This document shows, piece by piece, positions 36,170-39,406 of a stretch of 64,000 nt of DNA; position 1 is the stretch's first letter, and each line of letters starts with the position of its first letter. This DNA comes from Bacteroidetes bacterium 47-18 (GTDB lineage: Bacteria > Bacteroidota > Bacteroidia > Chitinophagales > Chitinophagaceae). A model generated the notes under the pieces. That model saw only the letters and a list, made by a program, of their open reading frames with translations. It had not been told where the DNA came from and ran no database searches. The position numbers and the translations under genes are program-made. The stretch is from assembly GCA_001897155.1 (NCBI GenBank), contig MKSF01000014.1:186001-250000 (forward strand), read 5' to 3'.

Positions 36170-36790
36170 TCAGCCCTGCAGGTATTCCAGCTCTCCTGCA
36201 ATATTGTCCCGTGCCTGCACTTCCAGCCTGCTGTGAAAATAGCCGGTCTTGAAGATCCTGCTCATCGAAAGAAAATGCTCCAGCACCTTTTTCCGGCCGA
36301 GGATATAGATATCATCCGGGTAGCAGTCGTATTCCAGCCGTACCGCCCTGTAATATTGCTCATAGACCTCCCGGCCCTGTCCCAGTATCGACAGGTCCGC
36401 ATCCGTAAAATAATTTGTATCGCTGTCTGCTGACAGGGTATGCGTGGCGGTGGCTGCTATCTGCCCGGTGCACCGCTGTATGACCGCTGCCGGCACACCC
36501 AGCCGCTCCAGCCGTTCGGAAGCAATCAGCGCGCTTTGCGCCTCGTTATCCTGCTGTCGCGGATCGTAAACGATATCGTGGTAGTACAGGGTGAACAGCA
36601 TCGCATTCCAGTCCCTGACGGCTGTTCTTATCTGTAGCAGCTGCTCCAGCAACTGCCGTAGGTGATGCAGGTTATGGTAATGCCGCTGCGGGGCCGTGTA
36701 CTGTGTCATGATCTCTTCCCAGTAAGCGCCGGCCAGCGCCTGGTGGCCCGGGTAATGGCCGAGCAACCGTATGAATGTTTCCTGTAGCAT
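36170..36790 (-). CDS. HD-superfamily metal-dependent hydrolase, COG4339 type
   Basis: 206 aa. Pattern of the COG4339 'predicted metal-dependent HD superfamily phosphohydrolase' group: HYHNLHHLRQLLEQL (His pair), LFTLYYHDIVYDPRQQDNEAQSA (His-Asp), and SDTNYFTDADLSILG (Asp-x-Asp). Family substrates are not established; the fold normally cleaves phosphate esters or nucleotides. Monocistronic, convergent with the ribosomal operon. Confidence 0.85.
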   Translation of the reverse strand: MLQETFIRLLGHYPGHQALAGAYWEEIMTQYTAPQRHYHNLHHLRQLLEQLLQIRTAVRDWNAMLFTLYYHDIVYDPRQQDNEAQSALIASERLERLGVPAAVIQRCTGQIAATATHTLSADSDTNYFTDADLSILGQGREVYEQYYRAVRLEYDCYPDDIYILGRKKVLEHFLSMSRIFKTGYFHSRLEVQARDNIAGELEYLQG

Positions 36791-37012: not shown

Positions 37013-37045
37013 TTTGTAACCCGGGAAAAAAGTTGCATAGTTTTG
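37013..37045 (+). promoter_or_regulatory. Promoter of the low-complexity protein gene
   Basis: TTTG (37013-37016), 21 bases, TAGTTTTG (37038-37045), matching TTTG-N-TAnnTTTG. ATG of the gene is 44 bases further on. The remainder of 36791-37012 shows nothing else. Confidence 0.65.
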
Positions 37046-37088
37046 GCATAGGTAATAGTATTACTTAAACAAATAAAACCACAATACT

Positions 37089-37790
37089 ATGGCAACGAAC
37101 ACACGCAGAGGGTATAATAACCGCCCTAACAATCAGAACAACTGGAGAAACAACGATCACAGCCGCAATGAGGGTTACAACCACCGTAATGACTTCCGCT
37201 CTTACGAGGATGAAGATTATGATGATTTCAACAACAGGGATAATTATCACTCCGGCTACCAGAGCAGGGGCAACTACAATGACCAGTACGATACCTATAA
37301 TGACAGGTATGAGGACGAGTACACGGACGATTTTGACAGAGAGGACAATTACACCGGCCAGGACAATTACCGTCAGCAGCAGTACGGGCGTGACCAGTAT
37401 GGCAACGGAGGACGCTTCAACAACCAGCAGGAAGGCGCATATGGCAACCGCAATATGAGACAGCATTACAACAGCGGTAACAATGATCACCAGAACTACA
37501 GGGGCAACCAGCAGCATTCCGGTAACGCTTACCGCCGCAATAACCAGCAAGGCCAGGGCTATAACCAGGGCGGCTACGGTCAGCAAGGCTATAACCAACA
37601 GGGCCAGGGCGGTTACAATCAAGGCGGTTACGGCCAGGGTGGCTACAATGAAGGCGGCTATAACCAGGGAGGATCTAACCGCGGCGGTTACAACCAGAAC
37701 CAGAACAGGAATAGTTCCCAATACAATAACCAGGATAATTTCCGCGGCAACCGTACACGTGGCGGTTATGGCAGCAGGTACGATCAGTAA
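37089..37790 (+). CDS. Prion-like low-complexity Gly/Asn/Gln/Tyr/Arg-rich protein
   Basis: 233 aa, entirely low complexity. N-terminal third: Asn/Arg-rich with Asp/Glu/Tyr (YEDEDYDDFNNRDNY). C-terminal half: repeats of Gln-Gly-Gly-Tyr and Gly-Tyr-Asn-Gln (GYNQGGYGQQGYNQQ, QGGYGQGGYNEGGYN), and a terminal RGNRTRGGYGSRYDQ with RGG-like motifs. There is no signal peptide, no hydrophobic core and no Cys. Composition matches FUS-type prion-like domains, so it is likely disordered and possibly able to phase-separate or bind nucleic acid (inference). The reading frame is real: own promoter, ATG well placed, and the DUF892 gene starts 50 bases later. The long opposite-strand ORF (37065-37832) is a shadow of the repeats. 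Confidence 0.8.
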   Translation: MATNTRRGYNNRPNNQNNWRNNDHSRNEGYNHRNDFRSYEDEDYDDFNNRDNYHSGYQSRGNYNDQYDTYNDRYEDEYTDDFDREDNYTGQDNYRQQQYGRDQYGNGGRFNNQQEGAYGNRNMRQHYNSGNNDHQNYRGNQQHSGNAYRRNNQQGQGYNQGGYGQQGYNQQGQGGYNQGGYGQGGYNEGGYNQGGSNRGGYNQNQNRNSSQYNNQDNFRGNRTRGGYGSRYDQ

Positions 37791-37840
37791 TCCATAATAA
37801 GTAACCTGATTTGTTTTATAACCTTTAATCAACTATTGTT

Positions 37841-38446
37841 ATGGCAAACGAAACCAGTTCCGTAAAAAACAATAATAATATGCAGGCGCAGGCGGAAGAT
37901 ACCGGTAAGCAATCCGGAGGTTCCCGCGATACCGCACCTTTAAAGAAATTCTTCCTGGATGCTTTAAAGGATATGCTATGGGCGGAAAAAGCGCTTGTAA
38001 CCGGCTTACAGAAGCTGCAGAAAGTAGCCGCCAGCGAAGAGCTGGCAGACGCTTTCGAAACGCATGAGCTGCAGACCAATAAACATATTTCCCGCCTGGA
38101 AAAGGTCTTTGATATGCTGGGAGAAAAAGCAGAAGCCAAAAAGTGCAAAGCCATGGAAGGGCTGCTTAAGGAAGCGGATGAGATAGTCGACGCTACGCCT
38201 GAGTATTCTGCAACCCGGGATGCGGCCATTATCATCGCGGCTCAGAAAGTAGAGCATTACGAGATAGCCAGCTACGGCGGACTTGTAGCTATCGCTCATA
38301 CGCTGGGCTATGAAAGAGTGGCGCACCTGCTGGAGAAAACGCTCATGGAAGAAGAAGATACCGACTATATGCTTACTGAAGTGGCTGAATGTCACATTAA
38401 CTTCGAAGCTGTGCAGGAAGATGCTCACGAGAAGGTGACAGCCTGA
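37841..38446 (+). CDS. Ferritin-like stress protein, DUF892 (YciF/YciE) family
   Basis: 201 aa. After a Gln/Asn-rich N-terminal 30 residues it has the DUF892 four-helix pattern: FFLDALKDMLWAEKALVTGLQKL (Glu ligand), TQKVEHYEIASYGG-like AAQKVEHYEIASYGGLVAIA (Glu-x-x-His) and LLEKTLMEEEDTD. Members are ferritin-like, often metal-binding, and induced by osmotic or salt stress. Translated 50 bases after the low-complexity protein and probably co-transcribed; that link suggests a stress-linked role for both. Confidence 0.9.
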   Translation: MANETSSVKNNNNMQAQAEDTGKQSGGSRDTAPLKKFFLDALKDMLWAEKALVTGLQKLQKVAASEELADAFETHELQTNKHISRLEKVFDMLGEKAEAKKCKAMEGLLKEADEIVDATPEYSATRDAAIIIAAQKVEHYEIASYGGLVAIAHTLGYERVAHLLEKTLMEEEDTDYMLTEVAECHINFEAVQEDAHEKVTA

Positions 38447-39031: not shown

Positions 39032-39406
39032 ATGAATCAGAATCAAGAAAACAGGAATCAGCATCAGGAAGACATGATGCCTTCAGAAATGAGAACATTG
39101 AGCGAAGTGCTTGAAAAATTGAAAGGTAAGGGCTATGATAATGAGCTGACCTTTTCCGACCATGGCAAAATGCAGGGAATGAATAAGATTTATAACCCTG
39201 AGGATCTGACGATCATCAAAACTTTCCGTTTCGAGGGTATGTCCGATCCCGCAGACAATGCTGCGTTATACCTGGTCAAAGACAAGGATGATGACATCGG
39301 TTATATAATGGATATCTACGGCAGTAACTCCGATCACGCAGGAGCCTCTTTTGATGAGTTCCTGAAAAAGATACCCGTTAAAGATATTGAGCATAACCAG
39401 ATATAA
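39032..39406 (+). CDS. Small soluble protein of an uncharacterised Bacteroidota family
   Basis: 124 aa, unknown function. After a Gln/Asn/His-rich start (NQNQENRNQHQEDMM) it contains LSEVLEKLKGKGYDNELTF, then FRFEGMSDPADNAALYLV and a final YIMDIYGSNSD. The motif set 'hydrophobic-x-FRFEGM-DPADxA-x-Y' is one I recognise from short Bacteroidota proteins sometimes mislabelled phosphoribosylpyrophosphate synthetase; none of that enzyme's motifs is present. Stands in the stress/accessory stretch with the low-complexity and DUF892 genes. AT-rich leader; no -7 element identified. Confidence 0.75.
   Translation: MNQNQENRNQHQEDMMPSEMRTLSEVLEKLKGKGYDNELTFSDHGKMQGMNKIYNPEDLTIIKTFRFEGMSDPADNAALYLVKDKDDDIGYIMDIYGSNSDHAGASFDEFLKKIPVKDIEHNQI

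Follow-up and report, generated by a model that had tools for sequence, protein, structure and literature searches.

Background

The window analysed here, a 64,000-nucleotide stretch of a Chitinophagaceae contig, contains an open reading frame for a protein built largely of Gly, Asn, Gln, Tyr, Arg and Asp. The first-pass annotation of this DNA called the product prion-like and FUS-type, rare in bacteria as an entire protein, and placed it beside a gene for a DUF892 ferritin-like protein. The locus raises the question of whether such a reading frame is a gene at all and, if so, from what it descends and what its product might do next to a ferritin-like partner.

The composition touches on several classes of disordered protein. 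Tyr and Arg stickers on Gly, Asn and Gln spacers are the grammar typical of FUS-like proteins. A prion-like stretch can be recognised by a criterion of the Michelitsch-Weissman type, at least 30 Asn or Gln in 80 residues, and hydrophilins by a Gly content above 6 % and a hydrophilicity index above 1.

In enteric bacteria, a small disordered protein is encoded together with YciF. YciG, YmdF and a paralogue are described as disordered KGG proteins under RpoS control, with reported protection against heat and acid (PMC7161692), and YciG has been classed as a hydrophilin (PMC5437024). YciG is a KGG protein expressed from the operon yciGFE (PMC7161692, PMC5437024, PMC4103569), which is described as important for resisting acid and salt (PMC4103569). 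Effects on biofilms and drug tolerance are reported for the KGG protein PA2146 and its homologues (PMC9262955). In E. coli, three DUF892 proteins, members of the family to which YciF belongs, are reported to lower free iron and to raise retention on magnetic columns (PMC5126674). With respect to drying, the hydrophilins DtpA and DtpB are described as aiding survival in Acinetobacter (PMC13232832), and the aggregates formed in E. coli on drying and rehydration as enriched in phase-separation-prone proteins (PMC10534466).

Results

Composition and predicted disorder of the window protein

The features of the locus are collected in Table 1. A count of residues bears out the composition given in the first-pass annotation for this 233-residue product: N 20.2, G 16.3, Q 13.3, Y 12.9, R 10.7 and D 8.6 %. 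Tyr occurs 30 times and Arg 25 times, and Lys, Val, Ile, Leu and Cys are entirely absent. With its Gly content and a GRAVY of -2.35, the protein falls within the hydrophilins by composition. It also falls within the prion-like range, as its richest 80 residues hold 35 Asn or Gln; the runner-up among the ORFs of at least 100 aa in the same window reaches 20. AlphaFold2, run on a three-row alignment, returned a mean pLDDT of 38.2, with 232 of the 233 residues below 50, and the protein is predicted to be wholly disordered.

Table 1. Coordinates of the features at the yciF-proximal locus, in window positions
Feature	Position	Strand	Basis or remark
Candidate regulatory element TTGGCAT-N8-GTATT, upstream of the window ORF	37043..37062	+	same pattern before the genome's own C13 KGG/yciF pair and before L084
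N/Q/G/Y/R-rich disordered-type protein, KGG-less, in yciG-like position	37089..37790	+	ATG at 37089, stop ends at 37790, 233 aa
Conserved N-terminus MATNTRRG	37089..37112	+	first 10 residues agree with L084 at 8 positions; codons 1-7 identical, codon 8 synonymous
Acidic block, about residues 39-87 (boundaries by eye)	37203..37349	+	net charge by fifth
Prion-like tract rich in N/Q/G/Y, its NQGGY/QGGY repeats degenerate; about residues 151-202	37539..37694	+	composition, TRF arrays
C-terminal block RTRGGYGSRYDQ, residues 222-233	37752..37787	+	11 of 12 residues as in L085; variant of the C-terminal motif of the slot proteins
yciF, DUF892, ferritin-like, 201 aa, 50 nt downstream of the window ORF	37841..38446	+	Pfam, profile, tree

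The claimed Gln-Gly-Gly-Tyr repeats are present (GGY 7 times, QGG 5 times) together with 16 sites of the form [GSNQ]Y[GSNQ]; the RGG-like motifs said to accompany them are thin, amounting to two copies. Two longer repeat arrays detected by TRF (within 37604-37697) match at 65 and 73 % as DNA, and the NQGGY repeats vary in synonymous codons; the repeats are therefore no fresh DNA duplication. Codon usage, compared with that of the ribosomal genes, is mixed. The opposite strand carries an open frame of 255 aa (37065-37832, minus strand) with a hydrophobic translation, and comparable antisense frames lie opposite L084 and L085; these are probably a mechanical by-product of the sense codons.

The term FUS-type did not survive closer analysis. 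Like FUS, TAF15 and the hnRNP prion-like proteins, the window protein sets Tyr/Arg stickers on Gly, Asn and Gln spacers and has no Lys, but unlike them it gave no RRM and no zinc finger in Pfam, has RGG just twice and carries an acidic block, which is common to KGG-class proteins. A search of the PDB by sequence likewise found no relative, the best match (E 1.9) being to a glycine-rich tail. Membership of the FUS/FET family is ruled out by these domain and motif counts.

The reading frame is conserved at the protein level

Direct searches leave the protein an orphan. It matched no Pfam or NCBIfam family, found itself alone in its own genome and matched 1 of 59 relatives, again itself; direct searches of genome contig, phage and plasmid collections gave no relative either. 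Orthologues were reached through the neighbour, by searching with the DUF892 gene and then inspecting the slot upstream of each match. This led to proteins of Edaphocola aurantiacus (L084, 255 aa) and of a Taibaiella MAG (L085, 265 aa as listed), and a profile of these two and the window protein found a further one of 249 aa (L195, genome G302). Counting the window's genome, the N/Q-rich form was found in 4 of 294 genomes of the family by this profile at E up to 0.01, a search in which diverged copies could be missed. The proteins from genomes G214 and G262 are those of L084 and L085, and L193 and L194 likewise duplicate these two. All four orthologues sit directly upstream of a DUF892 gene.

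Alignment of the window protein with L084 (z 7.2) and with L085 (z 10.2) was equalled in neither case by any of 500 composition-preserving shuffles. The last 12 residues, compared without gaps, match L084 at 3 positions, a number equalled in 222 of 2000 shuffles; matches are few because the motif (GFGSR) is offset by two residues in L084. Five of the six orthologue pairs share 29-46 % identity. The sixth, L085 and L195, shares 69 %, and its differences at codon positions 1, 2 and 3 number 53, 35 and 115 over 231 codons, an excess at the third position from which it follows that the amino-acid sequence is under selection. The YciF proteins of the same two loci are 84 % identical, with 29, 11 and 97 differences at the three positions. 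By these comparisons the disordered protein evolves faster than its partner, yet with constraint. As dS was computable in 1 of 12 comparisons, no dN/dS ratio is claimed.

The first-pass annotation had named a frame not conserved among relatives as one ground for its refutation; the frame is conserved, on the alignment with L085 and the third-position bias of L085 and L195. The comparisons thus show that ORF 37089-37790 is a genuine gene with protein-level constraint.

The downstream neighbour is a YciF protein

The product of the gene downstream matches DUF892 (PF05974) at E 3.5e-49, with 167.3 bits against a cut-off of 23.7, and its family profile matches the YciF structures 2gs4 (1.3e-49) and 4eru (1.9e-50). 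By family match and profile, the neighbour is YciF. The Asn/Gln-rich start ascribed to it was confirmed, with N or Q at 8 of the first 30 residues. In sequence it is otherwise an ordinary member of the family, and the unusual thing at this locus is its partner alone. The two genes probably share one transcript.

Other reading frames lie nearby. Farther downstream, 39032-39406 (plus strand) encodes a 124-aa protein with an N/Q-rich start and no Pfam match above cut-off. The same genome encodes a paralogue of it (38 % over 99 aa, E 9e-23) immediately before another of its YciF genes (L064:2075-2812), and DUF892 genes in L098, L120 and L123 have relatives of it close by, which makes this a second recurrent companion of YciF. 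Between rplQ and the window ORF, ORF 36170-36790 (minus strand) has a weak NCBIfam phosphohydrolase match (E 0.00071, under the cut-off).

A low-complexity gene recurs directly before yciF in Bacteroidota

We assembled a set from the 80 named loci that matched YciF best (the best 80 of 593 confirmed), the window, and the three further loci of the window's genome that carry DUF892. This set holds 90 DUF892 ORFs, 88 of them with at least 600 nt upstream. In 33 of these 88 the slot before yciF is occupied by a same-strand low-complexity ORF of at least 80 aa ending 8-134 nt before it. The set was picked by similarity and is enriched, and 33/88 overstates the general rate because 6 of the 10 rows of the selecting profile came from loci with such neighbours; in a less biased set the slot is occupied for 6 of 56 distinct DUF892 genes, a count that includes the KGG pair belonging to the window's own genome (L024) and L036, which is of another type. 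The position is a precise one: among 32 low-complexity ORFs of at least 130 aa in the 565,922 nt of the 80 loci, 30 lie exactly in the slot, one lies just downstream of DUF892 (L101) and one about 1.3 kb downstream (L109). The view that such a composition is rare in bacteria as an entire protein must be divided accordingly, since whole-protein low-complexity genes occupy this slot again and again in Bacteroidota and it is the N/Q-rich form that looks rare.

The slot proteins share more than their position. The KGG family PF10685 matches 22 of 34 (the 33 and L195) at E up to 0.1, and 12 of the 34 have no Pfam KGG; a looser KGG expression scored 28 of 33, counting L102, which has no Pfam KGG, and missing L108, which has a weak Pfam match. 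Among the 32 slot proteins of at least 130 aa, the second fifth has a net charge of -9 or lower in 31 (the exception is L108) and the last fifth is net positive in all. The motif [RG][SGN]G[FYI]G[SG]R stands in the last 14 residues of 23 of the 32, three N/Q-rich ones included. A further motif, G-Y/F-x-x-G-Y/F in the first 45 % of the chain, is also found in 23 of the 32; it is absent from the window protein and L085. The window protein belongs to the grouping as we define it here, being a same-strand low-complexity protein encoded directly before yciF, with an acidic second fifth and the C-terminal motif. The slot arrangement is that of yciG and yciF, as in the E. coli operon yciGFE, where yciG stands before yciF.

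KGG has been eroded or lost, without window-like N/Q enrichment, in several proteins in or near the slot (L006, L007, L026, L102, L109). That of Kaistella soli (L102) has no Pfam KGG yet keeps the GYxxGY and C-terminal motifs, and L006, L007 and L026 retain fragments such as RGFGS. Loss of KGG probably occurred more than once.

A probable origin of the N/Q-rich form among KGG-linked proteins

PF10685 found no match in the window protein at E up to 10 and, at E up to 1, none in L084, L085 and L195. The DUF892 tree, built from 89 proteins, joins the YciF proteins of the window, L084 and L085 in one clade (support 98/89), nested in a clade of eight rows (100/99) whose other five comprise four KGG-linked proteins and the genome's own copy L064, which has no such neighbour; the KGG labels were set by a separate sequence expression, and L195 is not in the tree. 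By partner genealogy, then, the N/Q-rich form is a single clade.

Its composition stands apart. The three N/Q-rich slot proteins differ from the other 29 in their fractions of N+Q (0.28-0.34 vs 0.04-0.19), Tyr (0.10-0.13 vs 0.02-0.07) and Ser (0.04-0.11 vs 0.13-0.29); L195 has N+Q of 0.29. The window's genome also holds a KGG/YciF pair on contig C13, with a KGG match at E 1.3e-13 and the sole KGG gene found there at E up to 1. This paralogue has 24 % Ser, 5 % N+Q and at most 7 Asn or Gln in 80 residues. Because the same genome keeps such a Ser-rich pair, the N/Q shift is not a genome-wide bias. The remaining two YciF genes of the genome (L064, L065) have no low-complexity neighbour of this kind.

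A link between the two forms comes from L084, in which the 10-mer QGYQAGYQAG matches the KGG-class proteins L087 and L089 exactly, the longest such match in 100 shuffles being 7. For the window protein and L085, the longest stretches shared with the KGG class (7 and 5) do not exceed those reached by shuffles. Alignment of the window protein with the C13 paralogue gave z 7.0, a value that may reflect shared block composition, since the ends match little (3/10 and 4/12). What ties the window protein to the KGG class is L084, together with its slot, its C-terminal motif and the tree of YciF proteins.

A candidate element upstream

The pattern TTGGCAT-N8-GTA[AT]T in the leaders of the window ORF, the C13 KGG/yciF pair (L201) and L084 gives 12 shared columns, with a maximum of 11 in 200 block-wise shuffles. 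The exact pattern, which was derived from those three leaders, has 3 occurrences in the genome and its backward control has 2; two of the three are the leaders of the window ORF and the C13 pair, and the third falls inside a 450-aa ORF. A shorter form with one mismatch is not enriched in the window (6 found, 5.1 expected). Statistical support for the candidate element is modest to weak. The leaders of L085 and L195 carry a related CTGGTAT or GTGGTAT, followed by AGTA. A reading of the element as a sigma-54 site was rejected, as the GG-GC spacing does not fit. The KGG/yciF leaders of Chryseobacterium (L091, L094, L095, L105, L110, L111, L117, L122) have a conserved element of their own, around TAATACTAGTCACGG or TGATACTAGTTA.

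Discussion

The reading that we favour, with a probability of about 0.62, is that the window gene descends from disordered stress proteins of the YciG type, or hydrophilins, which many Bacteroidota encode directly before yciF, and that it represents a lineage-specific form without KGG, turned into a prion-like sequence in a few soil bacteria related to one another. It resembles YciG, YmdF and the KGG proteins (PF10685; yciGFE of E. coli and Salmonella) in gene position and in being Gly-rich, very hydrophilic and, as modelled, disordered, and it shares the acidic second fifth and the C-terminal motif with the KGG-class proteins of Bacteroidota. It differs in the missing KGG motif, in its N/Q/Y-rich composition where the Bacteroidota KGG proteins are rich in Ser and Asp, and in its length, 233 aa as against the 60 given for Salmonella YciG (PMC5437024). 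To the bacterial hydrophilins at large, DtpA and DtpB as well as YciG, it can be likened in Gly content, hydrophilicity and predicted disorder.

A plausible course of events would start with the window gene and yciF being expressed together under stress, such as stationary phase, drying, or osmotic or oxidative stress. The ferritin-like YciF, a protein of four helices, would hold free iron and so limit Fenton damage, and its disordered partner would shield macromolecules while the cytoplasm dries. Its Tyr/Arg stickers on Gly/Asn/Gln spacers might in addition allow reversible condensates or gels, as opposed to a dispersed Ser/Asp-rich KGG protein. A stress-protective and possibly condensate-forming role is what we infer for the window protein. 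The hydrophilin-like, cell-protecting part of the first-pass annotation is borne out as to composition, modelled disorder and the YciF partner; the protection itself is deduced, more firmly now because the slot is YciG-like and KGG/YciG proteins are described as disordered stress proteins controlled by RpoS.

How far the composition itself matters can be read in more than one way. The N/Q-richness may be neutral compositional drift in a family that needs hydrophilicity and disorder, with no assembly of any kind. We regard this as a serious possibility, though somewhat short of even: five of the six orthologue pairs have diverged fast while hydrophilicity, high Gly and length persist, and the relatives L102, L026 and L006 eroded or lost KGG with no gain of N/Q, but N+Q stays at 0.28-0.34 in all four orthologues and L085 and L195 show amino-acid constraint. 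A more ambitious proposal is that the protein scaffolds condensates, its Tyr/Arg-driven phase separation recruiting YciF, nucleic acid or ribosomes to a storage body in the manner of eukaryotic prion-like RNA-binding proteins. Reversible assembly is plausible because Tyr and Arg without Lys in a Gly/Asn/Gln background follow the sticker-spacer grammar. The 16 flanked Tyr sites and the 35 Asn or Gln in 80 residues agree with it, as do the gain of N/Q and Tyr with loss of Ser in one clade and the adjoining yciF. The separate acidic block would, however, weaken simple FUS-like self-association and, with the lack of an RNA-binding domain and the two RGG motifs, argues against a simple FUS analogue; we consider the scaffold doubtful. 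Equally tentative is its evolutionary form, in which a soluble KGG hydrophilin turned, in one Chitinophagaceae lineage, into a whole-protein, Lys-free condensate scaffold with Tyr/Arg stickers that is co-expressed with the ferritin-like iron-holding protein under stress and organises it.

Two further explanations carry far less weight. The protein could be an exported or surface-bound N/Q-rich component, adhesive or amyloid-like, as some secreted amyloids carry repeats rich in Asn, Gln, Gly and Tyr like those seen here. A cell-surface fraction of Anabaena is reported to have contained YciG- and YciF-like proteins, with ribosomal L6 and HU in the same table (PMC4103569). This tells against placing the window protein purely in the cytoplasm, although the presence of L6 and HU suggests cytoplasmic carry-over. 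The N-terminus MATNTRRGYNN has no hydrophobic signal stretch, and with no Val, Ile or Leu in the whole protein export is unlikely; we hold a surface role to be very improbable. That the frame is merely open by chance within a repetitive stretch might be argued from the openness of both strands and the missing family match, but the orthologues conserve start, stop and ends, the repeats vary synonymously, and the third-position bias speaks so strongly against this explanation that we reject it, leaving it next to no probability.

As to novelty, a disordered protein before YciF is of an already known kind, that of YciG; what appears new is the KGG-less, prion-like form found in those four genomes of the family. 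In the open-licence literature, we recognised none of the matches listed as describing a KGG-less or prion-like YciG partner in Bacteroidota.

Conclusions

An orphan by direct search, the window protein finds a place in the yciG-yciF stress module through the position of its gene, the genealogy of its YciF partner and short motifs. This module, known from enteric bacteria, recurs in Bacteroidota with a long partner of the disordered type. The partner can pass from a Ser/Asp/KGG to an Asn/Gln/Tyr composition and yet keep its slot, its charge pattern and its C-terminal motif. The placement offers a likely origin for one such prion-like protein. As both forms are present in one genome, a single cell suffices to test what a prion-like composition does to a stress protectant; and if the tentative scaffold proposal were true, the KGG paralogue and the prion-like copy would be a natural before-and-after pair, from a dispersed to a phase-separating protectant.
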